This document shows, piece by piece, positions 2,736-12,919 of a stretch of 64,000 bases of DNA. Position numbers and translations under genes: made by a program. The DNA is from Kangiella sp. TOML190 (GTDB taxonomy: Bacteria > Pseudomonadota > Gammaproteobacteria > Enterobacterales > Kangiellaceae). The stretch is taken from positions 1,302,001 to 1,366,000 of the forward strand of contig NZ_BQYL01000001.1 in NCBI RefSeq assembly GCF_023706045.1, given 5' to 3'. The notes beneath the pieces are model-generated. The model saw only the letters and a program-made list of their open reading frames with translations, had not been told where the DNA came from and did no database searches. Each line of letters starts with the position of its first letter. Positions within the stretch are counted from its first letter, which is position 1.

Positions 2736-2978
2736 ATGACAAAAAAGATCGGCAGACCTTTAGGAAAAAATTTGGCAAAAACAAATGATGCAAAACGCTT
2801 CTTTAAGGCCGCACACGGCGCAGGATTATCATTGAAAGATATCCATGAGAAATTAATGAGAGCACTAGGAGAAGGGAAATGTCCTAGCTATAGAACACTG
2901 CAAGAATGGCGTAGAGGGACATATACGCCTCACTTTGTTCCCTTCTCAGATTGGGAAAAAAAGATTACAGAAAGCTAA
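2736..2978 (+). CDS. Small basic putative regulator (80 aa)
   Basis: This 80-aa basic protein starts MTKKIGRPLGKN and has a central KRFFKAAHGAGLSLKDIHEKL stretch that reads like a helix-turn-helix, then a YRTLQEWRRG segment typical of a recognition helix region. I do not recognise a named family. It lies directly behind a promoter whose -10 box is covered by a 7-bp inverted repeat, and 14 bp before the glycosylase gene on the same strand. Autoregulation and control of the neighbouring nucleobase cluster are plausible but inferred. Confidence 0.55.
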   Translation: MTKKIGRPLGKNLAKTNDAKRFFKAAHGAGLSLKDIHEKLMRALGEGKCPSYRTLQEWRRGTYTPHFVPFSDWEKKITES

Positions 2979-2992
2979 CACTATCAATATGA

Positions 2993-3838
2993 GTGAATAT
3001 TATGATCAGCAATAGTCAAAAAGCTTTTATAGAGGTAGGAGACAGATTATTTGAATTCGAACTACCTAGTGAGAATGAGGAAATCATGCCCAATGTAAAG
3101 TGGGGAAATATTGCTGGATTTCCGACTGTGGCTTATTGGTATTATAGAATCATGGAGGCAAGATTAAACAAGGCAGCCATAAAATATAGACTAGGAAATT
3201 CCCTAATTGAAGAGATCGGCGCATGTTTATTAGGTGGCCATGGAATACCTGCAGCGAATGGGTTAGCAGCATTTGAGCATATGAAAGAAAAAGGAGCTTT
3301 TAACGGTGAGGCTCATTCCGAAGAGCAACTCTATTACTGGTTATCACAACCTATTGATCTAAAGAGTAAAACTTTCAAGTACAGATTTGCAAAACAAAAA
3401 TCTAAATATTTGCATTGTGCATTAAAAAAAATCACCAATGAATCTGCACCATGTGAGACGGGTTTATCTCTCAGAAACTGGTTAACTGATATAAAAGGTA
3501 TCGGATTGAAAACCGCGTCTTGGGTAGCTAGAAACTGGCTTGATGCAGATGATGTTGCAATACTCGACATCCATATATATCGAGCAGGGGTATTGGGTGG
3601 GTTCTTTGATGCAGAAACAACTATCGAAAAACACTATTTATCATTGGAAGAAAAGTTTATTGCGCTAGCGCACTCTATGGATGTTAGAACTTCTGAATTA
3701 GACGCCTTGATGTGGTATGAAATGCAGGCATCTACTTCCGCCCTAAACCTTATGAAAAACAAACTAAATAATCAATTAAATGCCCAGTCTTCCACCGACA
3801 ATAGCAGCTCCAACTCCGAGCAGCTCGCATTCGCTTGA
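2993..3838 (+). CDS. OGG/HhH-GPD-type DNA glycosylase (281 aa)
   Basis: The protein carries the hairpin-helix-hairpin/GPD signature of 8-oxoguanine-type glycosylases: KGIGLKTASWVARN near residues 168-181 with a Lys (about 173) where bifunctional glycosylases place their Schiff-base Lys, then the catalytic Asp in AILDIHIYRAG (about 192). It may start at GTG 2993 or ATG 3002. It lies 14 bp behind the 80-aa gene and converges with the nitroreductase gene, overlapping it by 63 bp at the 3' ends. OGG-like genes occur with QueC-like genes in type IV CBASS defence loci (family knowledge). Action on DNA or on another nucleobase substrate cannot be told from sequence. Confidence 0.75.
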   Translation: MNIMISNSQKAFIEVGDRLFEFELPSENEEIMPNVKWGNIAGFPTVAYWYYRIMEARLNKAAIKYRLGNSLIEEIGACLLGGHGIPAANGLAAFEHMKEKGAFNGEAHSEEQLYYWLSQPIDLKSKTFKYRFAKQKSKYLHCALKKITNESAPCETGLSLRNWLTDIKGIGLKTASWVARNWLDADDVAILDIHIYRAGVLGGFFDAETTIEKHYLSLEEKFIALAHSMDVRTSELDALMWYEMQASTSALNLMKNKLNNQLNAQSSTDNSSSNSEQLAFA

Positions 3839-4450
3839 AATTGATTGAGCTGCATCATTCCCATGAATCCCTAGCATACAAAATGATAGGCCTATGGCTT
3901 CGGCAGTTAATGAGTGAATGGCGCTTATAGCGCCAGACTCTCTAAAAGCAAGCCCAGTAATATTTTTGTATTTACTAGATAACTTATTAGTATCACAGAG
4001 ATACCAAACCAAGTAACCACTTTTAATTTCAGCTAGCATCTTGAAGCAATTTTTTTTAAAACACGCCAATTCAGGCGTATCAATTTTTAACAAATCAAAA
4101 GAGTTATTTCTAGAATTATACAAATACCAACCATCGTCATTAATACTGCTTATCAAACAGTAAATGCTGTGAAGAGCCCCAGGAGAAGGATAGTTTCTTT
4201 TTTCAACGGGTTGCGAGTATTCATTAGTCCACTGTGATTTCGTTCTATTTACCAAATAAAATAGTTTACCCACTTCTTCTATTCCAACCTTGGTAAAGTT
4301 TCTTTCAGAGTGCCTTTCTTCCAGAACCCTTCTAAATGATTTATCAATATCGCATTGCTTGTATTTTAACTCGATTGTACTTATCACATCCCACTTAAAA
4401 GGAGCTCTTACCTTAATAGCTTCTCTTATTACAGGCTCTTTTAATTTCAT
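3776..4450 (-). CDS. Nitroreductase / SagB-ThcOx-like flavin oxidoreductase
   Basis: A 224-aa protein with features of the nitroreductase superfamily: an ERHSERNF motif (about residues 45-52, the RxSxRxF phosphate-contacting motif of FMN binding), YPSPGALHSIY near residue 88, and a C-terminal RESGAISAIHSLTAEAIGL plus GVGAAIVGG region resembling SagB-type dehydrogenases. These bind FMN and oxidise or reduce small molecules or peptide heterocycles. It is the last gene of the operon and overlaps the QueC-like gene by 4 bp. Its 3' end overlaps the convergent glycosylase gene by 63 bp. The substrate is unknown. Confidence 0.7.
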   Translation of the reverse strand: MKLKEPVIREAIKVRAPFKWDVISTIELKYKQCDIDKSFRRVLEERHSERNFTKVGIEEVGKLFYLVNRTKSQWTNEYSQPVEKRNYPSPGALHSIYCLISSINDDGWYLYNSRNNSFDLLKIDTPELACFKKNCFKMLAEIKSGYLVWYLCDTNKLSSKYKNITGLAFRESGAISAIHSLTAEAIGLSFCMLGIHGNDAAQSISSECELLGVGAAIVGGRLGI

Positions 4451-5040
4451 TCTTTAAAGAAACCTATTTCTTGCATAGTTGCATAATACTTATTACATCC
4501 TCTGCAATTCGTACACGGTATTACTGACTTATGACAAGAGTGAGCCCATGCTAATAAATTAAATGGAATTTTGGATTTTTTAATTAGCTCAGTAGCAGAT
4601 AAATTTATGGCTGGTGCTTTTATTTTTATATAACCTTCTTGATAAGATATAAGTTGATTAATTTTTTCAATAAACTCGATTGTTCCATCCGCGTGATATA
4701 CATCAGACTGAACTGTCCCAATTAATATCTGCTTACAACCCATTGAAACAGCTTTCATACAGCAAAGGGTAATAAGGAGTTGATTACGATATGGCCACCA
4801 ATCACTCTCGGGAGCTTGATTAATAGAGGGTTTGCCCGATAAATCGCCACTTCCTAAACTCTTACAATCAATATCAATTTCAACCAGTTGAATTCCTAAA
4901 TCTTTGCAGATAGCTTTCGATGCATTTCTCTCTGCTGCTGCAGAGTTCTGTCCATAGTCAATATTGAATGCTATATCAGGCTTACATAAATATGCCAATG
5001 CCGTAGAGTCCAAGCCTCCAGATAATAAAATACCTTCCAT
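4447..5040 (-). CDS. QueC-like PP-loop ATPase
   Basis: This 197-aa protein has the PP-loop SGGLDS (residues 7-12) at its N-terminus, a YGQ motif (29-31), an IGTVQSDVYHADG stretch (107-119) and four zinc-ligand cysteines (about C169, C176, C179, C182 in CxxxxxxCTNCRGC). These are hallmarks of 7-cyano-7-deazaguanine synthase, which uses ATP to turn a carboxy-deazaguanine into an amide and nitrile. It is a little shorter than typical QueC (about 220-230 aa). No queC/D/E partners lie nearby. It sits between the PfkB-NDT fusion (2 bp gap) and a nitroreductase (4 bp overlap), so it probably belongs to a specialised system and not to housekeeping queuosine synthesis. Confidence 0.82.
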   Translation of the reverse strand: MEGILLSGGLDSTALAYLCKPDIAFNIDYGQNSAAAERNASKAICKDLGIQLVEIDIDCKSLGSGDLSGKPSINQAPESDWWPYRNQLLITLCCMKAVSMGCKQILIGTVQSDVYHADGTIEFIEKINQLISYQEGYIKIKAPAINLSATELIKKSKIPFNLLAWAHSCHKSVIPCTNCRGCNKYYATMQEIGFFKE

Positions 5041-5042
5041 TG

Positions 5043-6260
5043 TTATACCCAGGAAAGCCTGTATATGGAGGAGCTGAAATCACCAAATATTTTACAGCCA
5101 GAGCCGTCATACATTTTCAATTCTTCTGCTTTTGGGTTTTCAGCTAAAATTATTACAGGTTTATTTAAGCTAATAGCATAACCAATCTCAAAGAGCGTTC
5201 CTGGATCAGTACCGTTAAAAATTGCATACATAACATCACAATCTTTTATAGCATCTATATCTTTTTGCACAACTTCATCAGCCGTACCAATACCGATTTC
5301 ATGAAATGGCGAAAATGTCTCCATACCAAACGACTCAATATAATACTTGGCTTCATTGATCATCCATAATTCAGATAGCGTAAAAAAAGGTCCTGCTAAA
5401 TACACCTTCTTCTTGCTTGCTTTAACTGGGGTCAATGACTGTTGGAAAACCTCAAGACCTTGCACGTTATTCATAACCCCAGTGCTGACATAGTGCGCCG
5501 CTGCAACACTAGCTTTTTCAGCTGCTTTCAAAGCTGAGCACCCTAATATATGCCAATAATAAGTATAGGCAGCTACAAATGAGTCCCCTGAGCCCACTGG
5601 AGATACAGAGTCTGTTTCGTATGGTAAAGCCCAACCTGACTCATTTGTTGAGTAAACATAAGCACCTCGTTGCCCGCATTTTACAATGACTACCTCAGCA
5701 CTTTCGGTTGAATGCAGCCACTTTGCCATATCTTCAACAGAAGTATGAGACACGCCTTTCTTTTCACCGAAAATTTTAATCTCATTTTGATTGGTAATAT
5801 AAACCAACTTTTCCGCTATACCACCTGTCTCCGAAAATAGTAGAGGATCATAGGTATTTTGAGGGTCGTATATAACGGTGCTTGCCGAAACTATTGGTGT
5901 TGCATCTATCATTCCAAAAACAACAGCAACAGCAGAAGCAGGTAAGTTTGGTGTGAAACCAGAGAGGTTTTCATTTATTGGCGAAGGAAGAATTTTTGGC
6001 TCTGCCAAAGGGTGAAAATAATCAAACGACACTGTCTCGTCACAATTATCCAAGCTTAGGGAAACATTCGCATTACCAAAAAAAAGAGCTCTTAATTCAT
6101 TTTCATCTTTTTGAGCTAATCTTGAATGCAACGTTATTGGAAGTGATGAATCGATTTGTGTTAAACAGAGTGCTGCTCGACCTGCAGAGCCCTGCAAAGA
6201 TGTATAGCTTGGCCAGGTGCAATACTCTTTGTAGGCACCTCCAATGACATGAATTCCCAT
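5043..6260 (-). CDS. PfkB-family kinase fused to nucleoside 2-deoxyribosyltransferase
   Basis: The 405-aa protein has two domains. Residues about 1-265 are PfkB/ribokinase-like, with the PVGSGDSF active-site motif (about 222-228; the Asp is the catalytic base). Residues about 285-400 match nucleoside 2-deoxyribosyltransferases: VYLAGPFF (about 286-293), a DCDVMYAIFNGTDPGTLFE segment and the predicted nucleophile Glu about 358. The ATG at 6260 is preferred to the upstream frame start: it follows the preceding stop directly and has AAGGA eight bases upstream. The fusion suggests nucleoside phosphorylation coupled to nucleobase release or exchange. Physiological substrate unknown. Confidence 0.8.
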   Translation of the reverse strand: MGIHVIGGAYKEYCTWPSYTSLQGSAGRAALCLTQIDSSLPITLHSRLAQKDENELRALFFGNANVSLSLDNCDETVSFDYFHPLAEPKILPSPINENLSGFTPNLPASAVAVVFGMIDATPIVSASTVIYDPQNTYDPLLFSETGGIAEKLVYITNQNEIKIFGEKKGVSHTSVEDMAKWLHSTESAEVVIVKCGQRGAYVYSTNESGWALPYETDSVSPVGSGDSFVAAYTYYWHILGCSALKAAEKASVAAAHYVSTGVMNNVQGLEVFQQSLTPVKASKKKVYLAGPFFTLSELWMINEAKYYIESFGMETFSPFHEIGIGTADEVVQKDIDAIKDCDVMYAIFNGTDPGTLFEIGYAISLNKPVIILAENPKAEELKMYDGSGCKIFGDFSSSIYRLSWV

Positions 6261-6261
6261 T

Positions 6262-6597
6262 TTAACGTCCTTGTGATTGAACAAATATAGAAATTAATGC
6301 ACCACTAATTTCTCTAATAACTGCAGTAAAACGATATTCTAGAGCTAAGCATTGCTTAAGCTTATCTGCATTTTGCACCAACCCTCCGACACGCCTACCT
6401 TCATGTGATACCTGAACAGCCTCAATACCATTCTCCACTTCTAAAGTGACAGTGAGAATCATACCTGCTTCTAAAGTATTTATAACGTTCCCATCAGGGC
6501 TGCTGATATGGGTTTCGAAAGAAAATTGAGAACAATCTACAGTAGCTTTACCAAAACCACCGAAATTTCCTGGGGAGCCTGAACCTGAACCAGACAT
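6262..6597 (-). CDS. Small protein with Ser/Gly-rich N-terminal tail (111 aa)
   Basis: I do not recognise the family. It starts MSGSGSGSPGNFGGFGKA, a flexible tail, followed by a compact beta-rich-looking domain (residues about 20-111) with no signal peptide. It is the first gene of the operon, with a strong AAAGGAG ribosome-binding site and its own promoter at 6665-6692. The next ATG lies immediately after its stop codon. Given the QueC-like enzyme downstream, the exposed tail could be a substrate for modification, as proposed for partners of type IV CBASS QueC-like proteins. That is a hypothesis; a structural or ligand-binding role is equally possible. Confidence 0.6.
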   Translation of the reverse strand: MSGSGSGSPGNFGGFGKATVDCSQFSFETHISSPDGNVINTLEAGMILTVTLEVENGIEAVQVSHEGRRVGGLVQNADKLKQCLALEYRFTAVIREISGALISIFVQSQGR

Positions 6598-7059: not shown

Positions 7060-8238
7060 TTAAAACCCCTTCGGCAGTGTAATGCCTAGATTTCGTAAAT
7101 ACTGAGTAGTAGCGTTGTTAAAGTGGGTGAATATCACTTTACCATTTGCACTTGTAGATGTAATTGTAAAACTATCTTTACCTGTTCTTTTAACAAAACA
7201 TTGCTTGGTTTGTCCATCGTGCTTAAACTTAAATGGCTTACCATTTTTTATATTATTTAGTGCTTGATTATAATATTTTTTTGGAGTCAACCGACTATGC
7301 TTAAGAGCATGACTTTTTAAGTTTATAAAGCGCGGAGAGTTCATCATACCTGCTTCCATGCAGGTTCCCCACATTCTCGGGTTCATACAAGCAGATAAAG
7401 AGCTCGCTAATCCATAAATATCAATTTCATTAGAAGGCCTATTTGTGTAAAGATAAATATTTTCTCCTCCCCACTGCCCAATCGGATCGGCTTGAATGTA
7501 GCGCCCTGTGCTTGGGTCGTAATCCCTAAAGTAGTTGTAATACAAGCCTGTCTCTTGGTCGTAGTATTGTCCAGGGAAGCCGAGGTTGTATCCACCAATT
7601 GAGTTGGTGGTTACGACTCTATCAAAATCGTTATTGTTAGCTCTCCATACGGTGGTTTTGCTTGAGTTGGTAATGCGCTCGGCACGACCTAGGTGGTCAT
7701 TATGTACATGATAGAGGGTGCCATTACGGGTAAACCCAATCACTTGGCCATGCAGATAAATATATTCTTTCCAAATTTTTCCAGTGATAGCGTACTCTGC
7801 TATCAATTGACCGGCTTCGTCATAGAAATAGTAATTAATATCATTACCTTTTCTTTTATAAACCCTTTGCCCCAGCGCATTATGCTTAAAGCTGGTGGTG
7901 ACGCCGCTTTTAAGGTGTGAGCTTAAACGGTTTTCAGCGTTGTAGTTAAAAGTCGCGCCAGCTTTGGTGCGAGTTTGTCCATTGCTGTTATAAGTAATAC
8001 TGCTACTGTTAATTTTTGTTAGCTTATTACTGGTTGGAGCATAAGTATTAGTCTCCTGCAAAGCACCGTTCTTATAACGCTTGGTGCGATTCCCAACCGC
8101 ATCATAATTATAAGTCTGATGGCCAGCATTGGTAGAATTAGAGCTCGTTAAACGATTCACCGTATCGTAACCGTAGGTTTGGGTATTGGCTGAAACGTAG
8201 CCATTGGTTATTTTGGTAATATTGTCGTTTTTATCAAA
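7060..8238 (-). pseudogene. Orphan RHS tip cassette 1 (core fragment plus toxin-like C-terminus)
   Basis: The region 7501-8238 copies 20807-21544 of the full RHS gene almost base for base. The translated core is identical up to the GRYIQADPIG motif, which is GRYIQSDPIG in the parent. Upstream of 8238 the match stops abruptly and an in-frame TAG follows, so there is no native start; the first possible start is GTG at 8160. After DPIG the sequence switches to a unique tip of about 120 residues (SHALKHSRLTPKKYYNQAL...). This is a typical displaced RHS-CT cassette. It may be silent, or become expressed after recombination into the parent. The toxin activity of the tip is unknown. Confidence 0.75.
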
Positions 8239-8605
8239 CGACCGCTAGGGATTGGCGGAAGTGCCGGAAATGCAGGGATGCAATTTCCGGCGTATATCAG
8301 GCGCTTCTGGCCGAAACGCTTTATCACCGCGAGCGGTGTCTGTTTTTATTCCTACCTTCTCACCCATCAATAAACTTACTCCTTATGTTATCATCACTAT
8401 CATTATGCTTAAGTAATAGACTAACTTTTAAAAATAAACCCCAGCTTTACGCAGTAAAGCCCATAAAGCTGTTAGGATTTATGGGTAGCTGAGTTTCAAG
8501 CGAGGCTTGTAAAATATATTTTAACAAGCCTAAGCTGGAAGCAGCGTCACTAGGGTTTTATTTCGTCAGGGTTCGCAAGCTCACCCTGACCTACGCTTGC
8601 TATAA
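8239..8605. other. Gene-free spacer between orphan RHS cassettes
   Basis: No credible gene is visible. It contains several inverted repeats: GCCGGAAAT/ATTTCCGGC (8263-8291), CCCATAAA/TTTATGGG (8460-8485) and GTCAGGGT/ACCCTGAC (8565-8590). None has a convincing T-run. The segment marks the breakpoint of the copied RHS core at 8238/8239. Confidence 0.5.
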
Positions 8606-8627
8606 AAAAGCCTCCGAAGAGGCTTTT
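8606..8627 (-). terminator. RHS cassette terminator, copy B
   Basis: The same AAAGCCTCCGAAGAGGCTTT hairpin as at 6696 and 19974, extended by A/T runs on both sides. On the minus strand it ends in a run of six T, giving a good Rho-independent terminator 30 bp after the immunity gene. Confidence 0.8.
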
Positions 8628-8657
8628 ATTCAAAATAACATTGCAAGAATCTTTGGA

Positions 8658-8963
8658 CTATTCTTCGAAGGGCTCCAGTAAACCCAAAGCTTCTCTTTCT
8701 TTAATAAACCTAGAAAAGATTTCCGTACCGTGCTCTATTGAATCTTGAATTTCATATGCTCTTTCGACTGTATAAAAATTCCACTCAACATCAGAGCCAT
8801 CTACAGTAGAGCACTTTACTTTTTCGTTTTCACATAATTTAATTGCAAGTCTTTCGGCTTCATCTTCATCTAAAGCGTCTATAAGGAGTATCCTTTCCTC
8901 CCATAACGGCTCTTTAGAATCTGATCGTGTTGACTTGAAAAGTACATTAACAGAATAGTACAT
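8658..8963 (-). CDS. Putative immunity protein, DUF4288-like (101 aa)
   Basis: The pattern YYSVNVLFKS...WEERILLIDALDEDEAERLAIKLC...VEWNFYTVERAYEI...GTEIFSRF resembles DUF4288, a family often found beside polymorphic toxins. The gene begins two bases after the stop of the RHS tip at 8966 and is followed by the shared cassette terminator, so it is most likely the cognate immunity gene of orphan tip 2. The family call is by eye and not verified by a profile search. Confidence 0.65.
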   Translation of the reverse strand: MYYSVNVLFKSTRSDSKEPLWEERILLIDALDEDEAERLAIKLCENEKVKCSTVDGSDVEWNFYTVERAYEIQDSIEHGTEIFSRFIKEREALGLLEPFEE

Positions 8964-8965
8964 TG

Positions 8966-9468
8966 TTATTTTCTAAACCTCTTATCATTTAAAAGTTTCC
9001 AAGCTTTCTTATAATCAGCTCCACGACCATTTCTAATTTGCTCTAAGGTCATATCCCTAAATTGTTGTGGGAACTCTCTATTAATACTACCTTTACAATT
9101 TTTCCCAATCCAATCTTTTGCTTTTGAACCAAATTTATCTAGAGCCTTCTGACCAGCAGCACGTAACTTAGGATCGGTAACTAAGTCCATAAACATCCTA
9201 ATAGAACGTACATCTCCTCGACCAATTGCTGCCATAAGTCCTGCTCTCTCGGAAGATAGTCCTGTCGGATCAACACCCATAACTGGGTTTTGATCTACAT
9301 ATCCATATAGATGATTTAATGAACCAAAGTAATCAATTGGGTTAACTAAGCCATCATTATAAACTTTTCTTAACTGGGGTGTTAATGAGAAGTCAGCCAT
9401 AATTCCTATAGGGTCTGCTTGAATATAGCGCCCCGTATTTGGGTCGTAATCCCTAAAGTAGTTGTAAA
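8966..9468 (-). pseudogene. Orphan RHS tip cassette 2 (toxin-like C-terminus)
   Basis: The frame open upstream of the ATG at 9400 encodes the very end of the RHS core (NYFRDYDPNTGRYIQADPIG) with an in-frame TAA just before it, so only about 70 bp of core remain. Then follows a tip of about 140 residues with YGYVDQNPVMGVDPTGLSS and a C-terminus ending MTLEQIRNGRGADYKKAW. Base similarity to the other RHS copies ends at about 9468, next to the KAP gene region. The downstream DUF4288-like gene is the likely immunity partner. Expression from ATG 9400 is possible but unlikely to give a delivered toxin. Confidence 0.65.
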
Positions 9469-9559: not shown

Positions 9560-12500
9560 TTATTTCACTCTTAATCTTTTAGCTAAGCTTTTTAAAATCG
9601 CCGACTGTTTTTCATCCTCGGTAATCGCTTGCAAGTCTTTAATCTTAACTTGTAAATTGTCATTTGCTTTAAATGATTTCAACCTTGCTTCATTTACTAT
9701 CCAGGAAATCCTTTCCCATTTTTCTCCTTTAAGCCAGGCATAAATGCGGGTATCTAAATGCTCTGTACTAACCCTGTTAACATAACTGCTAAAATGATCT
9801 TTAAATATATTGAAATATTCATCACGCAATAAATCTTCCAAGTGACTAAAATACTTTAATGTTATATTAGACATAGACGTTTCTGGGGACGCTACCACAT
9901 TTAGCAGTTGTTCGAAATAGTCAAAGAACCATTCTTCAGTCTCTTTATTTTCTTTTATTGTTATATTAAAGAAATCCTCAAACGATTCAGTATAATTAGA
10001 GGAGCCTTTCAAATCATTTTCAATTGCTATATCTAAATAATAAAAATTATTCTCGAAGCACGAATCCCATTGCTCTTTAGTAAAAATTGCAAGAATATCA
10101 ACAACCACCTCTCGCACTAAGTCAAAATTAGTTACTGAAAGTAAATATAGCACCTTATCATTATCTTTCTCTAAGGGGGAGCTTTTCAGATGCTCAGTAA
10201 CTTCGGAAATATCATGAGTCGATAAAAACGCATCAAATAGTTTTAAAGTGATTTCATTTTTAGGGAAGCCTTTTTTTAGCCAGTCAATTTGATTGTAAGT
10301 TAATACCGCGGGTACGTAATTCTTTAAAACACCTTCATTATGCGCACGCATTATTAACTGGCCTGAAAATGCAAACTTGTAAAGCGATAGCTCCCAAAGG
10401 TCTTCAAATAGGCTGTACTCACTAATCACTCCATAGAGTAATTCTACAAATTCTTCATCTAACTCTTGGTTAAATTGACTCTTATAAGCATCATTTACAT
10501 AGCTATTTGCTAAAAGCTCATCTTTTAGTGTTAAAGCTAGAAGCATAATAATTTCAGGAGTCGGCTGAGGAACATAACTGGTTAAGTAGCTGATAAAGTT
10601 AGAATTTCTGACAGCAGTCTCGATAACAGATTTTTGCTCGTCAGTACCAATTATAAATAGTTGAAATAATAAACTATATCCAATTTTATTCTCTGGTGTA
10701 CTTTGAGGGCTTAGCGCCCAATTATTTAGCGATTCAATTAATTCATCTCTACCTTGTTCAAAATATCTAGGGTATCTAGAGAGGACTTTCATACAAGCTA
10801 TAGAAAGCTCACTATTTAAGTAATTACTAGTGGTTATAGAAGATGTAGCATCTTTTAGTAGGCTTTTATTTGGTAGTACAAATGAAAACTCTATACCAAG
10901 TGATTTCTCCAAGTTATACCAATCAGCCACTTTTTCTACATTTAAATTTGTATAGTATAGTCTTGAAGGCTTTTCTTTATTTTCAGCATTTATTACTGTC
11001 TCTATATCTGATAGATACTCAAGATGTGCTCCTCTATCAGTCTTATCAAAATCAGAGAGGCATTTCTTTATACCATCCTTGAAGTTTAACTCTAACCAGT
11101 CAATAAGACTTTCTCTATCAAGAGTCACTCTTAGTAACTTCAAGAACTCATCCGCATAATCAAACTTTTTATAGTTGAAATCTTTAGAACCAATTATCGC
11201 ACTTTGAATTGCACGTCTTTCTTGTGCCAAATTTGGCAAGTGATTTTTAAACGGCTCATCTAATATTGATAAATAATTAAGCTTTCCATCCTCTGAGGTT
11301 TGAACGCTTGGTAGCAAGTCTCTCTTTACTGATTTATATGCAATCCAAAATGCGGATGGATGTGAAGACAATAGTTCGCCAATAACTTCTATTTTTCCAG
11401 AGTAGTATGCATCACTAATTTTAGGGGCTATCAATAGCTCAACGCCTTTCTCTAAATTGACTGCAAATAATATTGCAGAAATTTTTTGATATAGCAGCTC
11501 TTCATCTTCAGAATAGATATATGCTGGTAAGGACTTTCCTATCAACTTTTCCTGCAATTCCTCCCTTGACAAATCATTGCGAAGCGTTGCGTAGATTGAT
11601 AGGTATATAGACTCAAATTCACTTCCATATCTAAGTTTTAGAACACCCAGTTGATTAATATAATTACGTATTTTCCTTGGTGTTGGAGGAGTTCTTTTTT
11701 CTTGAGAAATATAACTTTCATAATGCTCTACGATGTCCTTTACATCTTCTTCGCTCCAGCTTGATAGGCTTTTAAAAGCATGTTCACTCAAATACCTTTT
11801 CCAGCCTGACATAATTGGCTTAGGGACTTCAAGCAACACCTGAAAGGACTTGTTAATAAAAGATCGAGCAACAGTGTTTTTGCTCTTTGATAATTCATAG
11901 AAAAGATTTCCATTTTCACTATTATTTACTGTTTCCTGGTACTCTTGTCTGGCGCTATCTTTTTTGCTCCATATTTGTTCAAGACCTCGCTCATCAAATG
12001 GGATTATGAACCAGGTATTATTAATGTAATCATTACCTTTATTTGGGAGGTTTCTATTTTGAAAAAATGACTGTAACGTTGACCATATTTTTAAGAAGTC
12101 TGCGTGTTCCACTCTATCTAGATTATCAACAACAATTATAGCTCTATTGTATCGTTTTCCCCTTCCTATATAGTTAGAAAGAATTTCTTTAAAATATTGC
12201 TCGAATTCAATAGAAGTTTTCTCTCCATCTTCAAATATTTCTTGATTATATTTATCCTTTGACGTGACTTTAAAAAAGCTCCAGTCTTTTCTTGGGAAAA
12301 TTTTCAAAAACTTTTTCTTATTCTTCCTTTTTTCGCCAAAAATAGCCCAACCTATAAGTGCTAATAATGGCGCAGCTATTAATAGCAATGAGATTGTATA
12401 TAGGATGTGTAAATCTCCAGCACTGTTGTGAAAAGGAGATACCACTTCATTATCTTTTACTAACCTTGTTAGTCCAATACCAATAGGTACAAACAAGCCT

Positions 12501-12919
12501 GATATAGTCAAAATAGCGCCGAGTTTAGAAGCCCGTTTTTTTGATTTAACCGTTACTTTTTTAAATTTAGAACTAATTTTTTGTTTGTTTTCCTGTAAAG
12601 TTTCATCTTTATTGTCAGGGTCTATATGATTAATCAATGATTCTAAGAATATTCTTCTTAAAGGATCTCCTTCATGCGCCCATGCATCAAACAGAAAAAA
12701 TAAAGTACTATCATCTGGAAACTTCTTCCTTAGCAACTCAATCACTGTTGATTTCCCGGCTCCCCAGTCACCCGAAAGGCCTATCGTACAAGCTTTTTCC
12801 GACTGCTCGATAAGCGTGTGCAACGTATCAGCAGTTTTTTGATGCGTTTGATCCTCAAAAAGATCTTTTTCGGAAACTTGTTCATAAAGCATTTCAAAAT
12901 TGAAAGTATTTTCCGCCAT
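9560..12919 (-). CDS. KAP-family P-loop NTPase (1119 aa)
   Basis: The N-terminus has a Walker A motif (GDWGAGKST, about residues 50-58), followed by FDAWAHEGDPLRR. Two membrane helices are inserted in the NTPase domain (about 134-154 and 170-194), the hallmark of KAP NTPases, then a Walker B-like AIIVVDNLDRV (about 260-270). The remaining 700 residues are a helical region with no motif I recognise. The gene forms an operon with the 141-aa membrane protein upstream (13-bp gap). KAP proteins include PifA-like phage-exclusion factors, so a defence role is reasonable but not shown. The gene is AT-rich and lies between an RHS remnant and a mobile element. Confidence 0.8.
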   Translation of the reverse strand: MAENTFNFEMLYEQVSEKDLFEDQTHQKTADTLHTLIEQSEKACTIGLSGDWGAGKSTVIELLRKKFPDDSTLFFLFDAWAHEGDPLRRIFLESLINHIDPDNKDETLQENKQKISSKFKKVTVKSKKRASKLGAILTISGLFVPIGIGLTRLVKDNEVVSPFHNSAGDLHILYTISLLLIAAPLLALIGWAIFGEKRKNKKKFLKIFPRKDWSFFKVTSKDKYNQEIFEDGEKTSIEFEQYFKEILSNYIGRGKRYNRAIIVVDNLDRVEHADFLKIWSTLQSFFQNRNLPNKGNDYINNTWFIIPFDERGLEQIWSKKDSARQEYQETVNNSENGNLFYELSKSKNTVARSFINKSFQVLLEVPKPIMSGWKRYLSEHAFKSLSSWSEEDVKDIVEHYESYISQEKRTPPTPRKIRNYINQLGVLKLRYGSEFESIYLSIYATLRNDLSREELQEKLIGKSLPAYIYSEDEELLYQKISAILFAVNLEKGVELLIAPKISDAYYSGKIEVIGELLSSHPSAFWIAYKSVKRDLLPSVQTSEDGKLNYLSILDEPFKNHLPNLAQERRAIQSAIIGSKDFNYKKFDYADEFLKLLRVTLDRESLIDWLELNFKDGIKKCLSDFDKTDRGAHLEYLSDIETVINAENKEKPSRLYYTNLNVEKVADWYNLEKSLGIEFSFVLPNKSLLKDATSSITTSNYLNSELSIACMKVLSRYPRYFEQGRDELIESLNNWALSPQSTPENKIGYSLLFQLFIIGTDEQKSVIETAVRNSNFISYLTSYVPQPTPEIIMLLALTLKDELLANSYVNDAYKSQFNQELDEEFVELLYGVISEYSLFEDLWELSLYKFAFSGQLIMRAHNEGVLKNYVPAVLTYNQIDWLKKGFPKNEITLKLFDAFLSTHDISEVTEHLKSSPLEKDNDKVLYLLSVTNFDLVREVVVDILAIFTKEQWDSCFENNFYYLDIAIENDLKGSSNYTESFEDFFNITIKENKETEEWFFDYFEQLLNVVASPETSMSNITLKYFSHLEDLLRDEYFNIFKDHFSSYVNRVSTEHLDTRIYAWLKGEKWERISWIVNEARLKSFKANDNLQVKIKDLQAITEDEKQSAILKSLAKRLRVK

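Follow-up and report, generated by a model that had tools for sequence, protein, structure and literature searches.

Why should a genome with a canonical QueC of its own carry a second, QueC-like gene in a tight cluster with nucleoside-handling enzymes and a small protein? The question is raised by a 64,000-nucleotide stretch of the 2.45-Mb genome of Kangiella sp. TOML190 (contig NZ_BQYL01000001.1, positions 1,302,001 to 1,366,000; this whole stretch is called the window here), in which a cassette encodes a small protein of 111 amino acids (aa), a PfkB-like kinase fused to a nucleoside 2-deoxyribosyltransferase (PfkB-NDT), a QueC-like ligase, a flavin mononucleotide (FMN) dehydrogenase of the SagB/CyaGox type (the flavoenzyme), and an OGG-type glycosylase/lyase (Table 1). 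The reading that we favor, at a probability of about 0.55, is that the cassette is a mobile QueC-type protein-conjugation defense system, in which a nucleobase is probably joined to the tip of the small protein in the course of antiviral defense. We infer every chemical step, and the defensive role, from the makeup of the cassette, the tail of the small protein, the folds, the kinship of the proteins, and the pattern at residue 2.

A conserved cassette around a QueC-like enzyme

Genome contigs were scanned with an alignment of 14 QueC relatives, which returned 293 relatives, and the best 79 loci were retained; with the window and 15 plasmid loci, these form a set of 95 loci, whose six-frame open reading frames (ORFs) were searched with profiles of 2 to 11 seeds. 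Counted anywhere in the fetched stretch, QueC was found in all 95 loci, PfkB-NDT in 94, the small protein in 90, OGG in 84, and the dehydrogenase in 79, and the same search found Dam-like methylases in 54 and dGTPase-like proteins in 18. Because the 15 plasmid loci had been picked via the small protein or PfkB-NDT, the fair measure of co-occurrence is the 79 loci picked via QueC alone, of which 78 hold PfkB-NDT, 76 the small protein, 73 OGG, and 70 the flavoenzyme. With partner genes in so many of these loci, the grouping exceeds chance; two of the missing-gene cases are contig ends (L045 and L085). The hosts belong to the Pseudomonadota, Bacteroidota, Cyanobacteriota, Spirochaetota, Acidobacteriota, and Verrucomicrobiota, and haloarchaeal plasmids are also represented; the genes thus co-occur across phyla, and the failure to do so that the initial annotation had named as fatal to its proposal did not materialize.

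The genes that the initial annotation named are present in the window, and four of the products match known profiles: OGG matches Ogg-HhH (PF22175; 57.7 bits, cutoff 27), QueC PF06508 (85.2 bits), the two parts of the fusion PF05014 (61.9 bits) and PF00294 (51.8 bits), and the flavoenzyme the SagB model TIGR03605 at 55.5 bits, under the cutoff of 78.4. The small protein, whose gene is preceded by the ribosome-binding site AAAGGAG, matched nothing in Pfam, NCBIfam, or PADLOC at E values up to 1. Reading along the minus strand from 6597 to 3776, the genes for the small protein, PfkB-NDT, QueC, and FMN dehydrogenase are separated by 1 and 2 bases and then overlap by 4; the fusion most likely starts at ATG 6260 rather than at TTG 6284, and a search for promoter patterns found nothing. 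A tblastn search with the 111-aa protein returned four plasmid records, and in all three examined (two by annotation, one by ORF list) the gene order is small protein, PfkB-NDT, QueC, dehydrogenase. OGG is either convergent, past the dehydrogenase, or encoded on the same strand upstream, and in L066 it is 5 kb off.

The cassette is sparsely spread. Among 369 genomes of the class, a QueC relative was found in 3, that of the window included (the search is dominated by canonical QueC, and only the three matches above 280 bits were counted as the cassette family), and the small protein was found in none of 19 congeners. At least 10 of 5,426 Escherichia coli genomes carry the cassette, by a search that detects near kin of a Citrobacter plasmid copy only. 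Viral contigs yielded only 6 relatives, one of which is a contig end carrying just QueC, and we therefore take the cassette not to be chiefly phage-borne. Four loci (L128, L046, L082, and L192) hold the cassette, or the small protein plus PfkB-NDT, in two nearby copies, and in Aggregatibacter actinomycetemcomitans HK_961 (L073:5720-6956) the PfkB-NDT matches are split over two open frames that form a single frame in the relative L074. An 80-aa ORF at 2736-2978 of the window matched no ORF in the other 104 loci searched and for this reason is not counted as part of the cassette.

Table 1. Coordinates of the cassette genes in the window
Feature	Position	Strand	Remarks
111-aa small protein	6262..6597	-	Flexible tail MSGSGSGSPGNFGGFGK and HIRAN-like beta domain (residues ~22-111); predicted N-terminal acceptor
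N-terminal tail (MSGSG...), codons 1-15	6553..6597	-	Predicted acceptor is Ser2 once Met is removed
PfkB-like kinase fused to nucleoside 2-deoxyribosyltransferase	5043..6260	-	Readable from TTG 6284
QueC-like ligase, 197 aa	4447..5040	-	Motif CH(x)5CxxCxGCxK; cluster 4 of Libby et al.
SagB/CyaGox-like FMN dehydrogenase	3776..4450	-	Azoline-oxidase family by profile; 4-base overlap with QueC
OGG-type HhH glycosylase/lyase	2993..3838	+	Convergent; 63-base overlap with dehydrogenase end

The tail of the small protein and the QueC-like enzyme

An in-frame start giving M-[S/T/G/C]-[G/S] is present in 95 of 98 small-protein loci, taking in each case the first in-frame ATG that fits and with the N termini of L013, L015, L017, and L025 set by hand; residue 2 of these 95 is S in 86, G in 5, T in 3, and C in 1, and residue 3 is G in 90 and S in 5. 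The three loci outside the count are L080, L092, and L128. Under a stricter pattern restricted to ATG, the tail is found in 87 of 98 small proteins, compared with 6 of 104 PfkB-NDT, 32 of 105 QueC, 1 of 82 dehydrogenase, and 0 of 92 OGG sequences, the QueC figure being read as internal ATGs in GDMAG and left in the count. When starts were chosen blind to the pattern, by ribosome-binding-site score plus an ATG bonus, the tail start was recovered in 81 of 90. Past the start runs a Gly/Ser-rich stretch of variable length, longest in the haloarchaeon L011 (the small protein of L035, MSGSGGGFGGGAS, serves as an example), and in three haloarchaea the small-protein domain appears, by eye, to be doubled.

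Tails of this kind recur on other partners. QueC is followed by a gene for a TIR protein in each of the four rhizobial TIR loci fetched, and these proteins start MGGGGGGDGNW, MGGGGGGNW, or MGGGSSGSW (the one scanned, from L016, matches ThsB_TIR at 90.6 bits); the presence of a similar tail on an unrelated partner is the strongest indication that the QueC enzyme works on the tail. The diverged small protein of a third QueC lineage (L133, L134, and L140) starts MGS(T/S)GSG and is homologous to that of the cassette by profile comparison (probability 90%, E value 1.5e-6). In a type IV CBASS locus used as a control (L139, with Cap9, a gene in the Cap10 position, and CD-NTase), the CD-NTase starts MGGSGGGFFSNSD and has the tail MGGSGGGFF. 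The window tail reads MSGSG, compared with MG[GT]S for the CBASS acceptor motif, and Gly2 occurs in 5 of the 95 tailed small proteins.

The enzyme itself resembles Cap9. The window QueC has both the SGGxDS loop and CH(x)5CxxCxGCxK, and among its relatives SGGx(D/E)S is kept in 105 of 105 and the Cys motif in 97 of 105. Its top match in the profile search is Cap9 (9nto), by a small margin, and the top structural match of its predicted model is likewise Cap9 9nto; a QueC tree without canonical QueC rows has a very long Cap9 branch and is uninformative on the root. QueC-family matches of about 190 aa in L099, L111, and L115 were considered as possible Cap9 proteins and set aside, their short loci holding no CD-NTase by eye. 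The window QueC has HxDG and WWPYRNQ in place of the canonical QueC motifs YPDC and VPxRN. A housekeeping role in queuosine synthesis, which the initial annotation had named as the other outcome that would undo its proposal, is rejected for the cassette copy because a separate canonical QueC (266.8 bits) is encoded elsewhere in the genome, beside a QueE-like gene (83.5 bits). Across 50 host genomes (that of the window and those of 49 of the 79 loci), QueD was found in 47 and a QueE-like match of at least 38 bits in 47, with only one QueE match exceeding that model's strict cutoff. On two related Rhodobacterales plasmids (L009:7399-8040 and L135:8465-9040), the cassette is followed by a VUT-family gene annotated as queuosine salvage, which hints that the supply of 7-deazapurines is important.

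QueC enzymes use ATP to activate an acid and then an amide. In the scheme that we propose, the cassette enzyme would adenylate an acid resembling 7-carboxy-7-deazaguanine (CDG), supplied by the host, and would join it to the N terminus of the HIRAN-like protein at Ser2 once Met is removed, in the way that Cap9 modifies the CBASS CD-NTase. The flavoenzyme may then finish an azole built from Ser2 and the new amide. PfkB-NDT, whose NDT part is likewise an enzyme of base exchange, would replace the transglycosylase (TGT) of CBASS, acting on the attached or free base at the deoxyribose and phosphorylating it, OGG would act on the base in DNA, and the conjugated HIRAN-like protein would sense or act on phage DNA. 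The domain behind the tail matches the HIRAN fold, at the level of the fold only. HIRAN domains bind DNA 3' ends. The small protein is like those of HLTF, Rad5, and the C-terminal part of HamB in fold, without a sequence-level match (HIRAN domains are treated in PMC9503650 and PMC11706625). Membership by sequence is unsupported in the comparisons made: PF08797 is absent from the 23 families listed for 52 small-protein members, and HHalign, with only three HIRAN sequences compared, gave a probability of 0.5%.

PfkB-NDT and OGG bear on two other explanations. In an alignment of 100 of the 104 PfkB-NDT relatives (4 short ones were left out), the kinase Asp (D234, numbered from the TTG) is kept in all 100 and the NDT Glu (E366) in 98, and the Lys/Asp pattern of OGG is kept in 92 of 92 relatives. 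The cassette could be an operon for the salvage of purines or 7-deazapurines, with PfkB and NDT recycling nucleosides and QueC acting on the base, as raised in the accessible part of Libby et al. (PMC13329287); the enzyme classes do handle nucleosides, their kinase Asp and NDT Glu are kept, and the VUT-family gene stands beside the cassette on the two Rhodobacterales plasmids. We nevertheless consider salvage very unlikely, as it accounts neither for OGG and the conserved HIRAN-like protein with its tail nor for the variants with TIR and TIR-TGT, the defense neighbors, and the sparse, mobile distribution. To our minds it is also highly improbable that QueC, NDT, and the kinase make a deazaguanine deoxynucleotide for modification of DNA bases, with OGG policing its removal and the Dam-like gene as a companion. 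Together, NDT and the kinase would be expected to yield a deoxynucleoside monophosphate, and this, the conserved OGG pattern, and the Dam-like gene (54 of 95 loci) speak for such a system; a gene for TGT-type base exchange was found in 0 of 10 window proteins scanned, and the tail of the small protein and the same tail on TIR proteins would go unexplained. Where inspected, the gene for the Dam-like adenine methylase adjoins or overlaps that for OGG (L002:9554-10222, L007:8237-8914, and others); none was seen in the window cassette.

Residue 2 and the flavoenzyme

By profile, the closest PDB relatives of the flavoenzyme are the SagB-type proteins CyaGox and BmdC, which we take to be azoline oxidases, and McbC is the weakest of 12 (E value 0.003). 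In SagB/McbC-type azoline dehydrogenases, a Lys-Tyr (KY) pair has a characteristic role; the corresponding pair in the flavoenzyme aligns with that of CyaGox, K being kept in 70 of 79 sequences and Y in 79 of 79. CyaGox, BmdC, and McbC are the best solved relatives of the cassette enzyme, which differs from them in its proposed substrate, a protein N terminus bearing a nucleobase.

The presence of the flavoenzyme is associated with the identity of residue 2. Where a dehydrogenase gene lies on the same strand within 5.5 kb downstream, residue 2 is S in 74 and T in 3 of the 77 loci with an assigned start (one more has none assigned); where there is no such gene, it is S in 10, C in 1, and G in 5 of 16 (two more have none assigned), and two further loci have the dehydrogenase in a second copy. 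Fisher's exact test gives P = 8e-5, or 1e-7 with the four TIR proteins added, values that are not true probabilities because related loci are counted apart. By eye, the flavoenzyme gene is missing in about seven separate tree branches, in two of which Gly2 occurs (the haloarchaea and L088), and Gly2 is found in the TIR lineage and the third QueC lineage as well. Six later loci are consistent with the pattern: Ser2 is present together with the enzyme in L190 and L191 and without it in L188, L189, and L192, and L140, without the enzyme, has Gly2.

A chemical reason for the association can be suggested: the ATP-dependent activation of an amide by QueC enzymes, if applied to an N-acyl serine, could lead to ring closure, and an azoline oxidase would turn the resulting oxazoline into an oxazole. 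In an elaborated scheme that we hold to be unlikely, 7-deazaguanine on the N-terminal Ser would be closed to an oxazole by way of the two ATP-dependent activations of QueC, the acid being turned into an amide and the activated amide attacked by the Ser2 hydroxyl before the azoline oxidase acts; PfkB-NDT would load the base onto a deoxyribose phosphate, and the nucleotide-carrying protein would be a warhead or sensor at phage DNA ends. No description of such an azole and nucleotide-loading modification was found in the literature searched. Alternatively, and this we rate as tentative and somewhat unlikely, the N terminus would be deazaguanylated without an azole, the flavoenzyme oxidizing or reducing the base or some other partner and Ser2 being tolerated. 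Nitroreductase-fold enzymes are chemically varied, the flavoenzyme misses the SagB cutoff, and Ser2 or Cys2 is kept in 11 of the 16 flavoenzyme-less loci with an assigned start, so that Ser2 does not need the flavoenzyme; yet its closest solved relatives are CyaGox and BmdC, the KY pair is kept, and Gly2 occurs in 0 of 77 loci with the flavoenzyme downstream.

Several observations weigh against the favored scheme. The substrate pocket reads HxDG in the cassette QueC and YxDC in both QueC and Cap9, and a GSG(D/E)L stretch common to the cassette QueC and the Cap9 of 9NTO is absent from the L139 Cap9. Three of the 50 host genomes lack QueD, three lack a clear QueE-like gene, and a metagenome-assembled genome (L077) lacks both. 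Ser2 is found in most members, whereas the CBASS modification is reported on Gly2; the tail count accepts the first ATG that fits, and no tail was found in L128, which has two small-protein copies. Sequence comparison of the small protein with HIRAN found nothing. Finally, Ser2 or Cys2 persists in the 11 flavoenzyme-less loci, and, as relatives cluster on the tree, only a few independent events underlie the residue-2 test.

Other genes can take the position of the flavoenzyme. A dGTPase-family gene lies in or near the cassette in L010:6789-8279, L070, L078, L081, L129, L130, L185:18711-20075, and L186:18710-20074, and in L010, L070, and L078 it stands directly past QueC, where the flavoenzyme would be. 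In two Rhizobiaceae (L012:6772-7494 and L130:7772-8491), an annotated restriction endonuclease gene directly past QueC replaces it. In L046 and L082, the flavoenzyme accompanies one of the two copies only.

Kinship with known defense systems and the genomic neighborhood

Type IV CBASS comprises Cap9, Cap10, and CD-NTase, according to the available part of Wassarman et al. (2025; PMC11996544). The cassette resembles it in its Cap9-like QueC, its OGG gene, and an N-terminal tail similar to the one on the CBASS CD-NTase, and differs in having a HIRAN-like partner for CD-NTase, PfkB-NDT for TGT, a SagB-like flavoenzyme, and Ser2 for Gly2. OGG is a component of type IV CBASS; it was not seen in the control locus L139. 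A SMODS-type CD-NTase (PF18144) had no match in the whole genome of the window, and TGT had none among the ten window proteins scanned, the single TGT match of the genome lying outside the window. In the rhizobial loci, QueC, PfkB-NDT, and OGG occur together with a TIR protein that has a TGT domain (PF01702; 37.7 bits in L014, over the cutoff, and 18.2 in L016, under it). The L139 gene in the Cap10 position has no Pfam match, and in a phmmer search of the four rhizobial TIR-TGT proteins it matched all four at 31 to 43 bits, which makes a bridge between the designs of the cassette and of type IV CBASS. The initial suggestion that the cluster may be a relative of type IV CBASS without a CD-NTase agrees well with the lack of a SMODS-type CD-NTase match in the genome, the Cap9-closest QueC, the CBASS-like tail, OGG, and the rhizobial TIR-TGT variant.

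A second comparison is with qatABCD, in which QatC is QueC-like, QatB carries an MGTS tail, QatA is a KAP protein, and QatD is a TatD protein. In the portion of Gao et al. (2026; PMC13279940) available, the flexible N-terminal tail of QatB, with its MGTS motif, is needed for defense, and an MGGS motif is cited for the CBASS CD-NTase. The cassette and qatABCD thus share a QueC-family enzyme and a flexible-tailed protein with small residues at positions 2 to 4, whereas the cassette QueC has 197 aa, unlike the long QatC, and TatD matched 0 of 10 window proteins. The KAP NTPase of the window (9560-12919; 1119 aa), which the initial annotation had noted beside the cluster, was rejected as a QatA-like part: it scores weakly against the QatA model (52.4 bits; cutoff 600), and phmmer (E values up to 1e-5) matched it in 0 of 104 other loci. 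The interval between cassette and KAP gene (7060-9400) holds ORFs that by eye resemble RHS-type C-terminal fragments.

Part of the cassette is already in print. In the accessible text of Libby et al. (2026; PMC13329287), QueC cluster 4, mainly from Proteobacteria, is defined by CH(x)5CxxCxGCxK, has PfkB-NDT in about 89% of its neighborhoods, and is suggested to act in purine salvage. The window has both the Cys motif and the PfkB-NDT neighbor, with YGQ(x)5E where cluster 4 has YGQ(x)6E; that text makes no mention of the small protein, the flavoenzyme, OGG, or the tail. Among the matches listed in literature searches (titles and abstracts, with few subscription papers), nothing was recognizable as the whole cassette, and none on HIRAN plus QueC was on the subject. 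The suggestion that the cluster is undescribed therefore falls for the QueC-PfkB-NDT pairing and stands, in the literature searched, for the remainder.

In the two E. coli strains examined, the cassette lies between ssb and yjcB in an island that opens with two or three integrase genes, and in both a Dam-like gene and an annotated anti-phage dGTPase lie behind it. The adjoining genes differ: in one strain they encode a UvrD helicase together with an ATP-dependent nuclease, which we read as Gabija-like, and in the other they are response regulators plus a large unknown gene. Among 115 neighbor ORFs from 40 loci, PADLOC at E values up to 1e-20 reported 103 models in all, including dGTPase (6 ORFs), TniQ (4), AriA (2), type I and III restriction, and a CBASS cyclase, compared with 32 models among 108 control ORFs from the same genomes (25 listed, chiefly PD-T4-6 in one ORF); the comparison is descriptive only, the control adjoining core genes and being biased low for defense. 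Because PADLOC gives no per-protein totals and 25 models are listed, we claim no enrichment figure. In two unrelated hosts (L008:1471-4279 and L129:8675-10972), Multiubiquitin, ThiF-family, and DUF6527 genes beside the cassette form a ubiquitin-like conjugation cluster.

If the cassette is a conjugation system of this kind, the QueC cluster 4 assigned to purine salvage would be reassigned, and QueC-driven tagging of protein tips would be a general plan in bacterial immunity, with CD-NTase, QatB, the HIRAN-like protein, and TIR as exchangeable partners. The exchange of TGT for NDT, both glycosyl-exchange enzymes, and the link between Ser2 and the flavoenzyme would offer probes of the step after conjugation, which is called open for qatABCD in the available part of PMC13279940. 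Carriage by at least 10 of 5,426 E. coli genomes makes the cassette tractable in E. coli.

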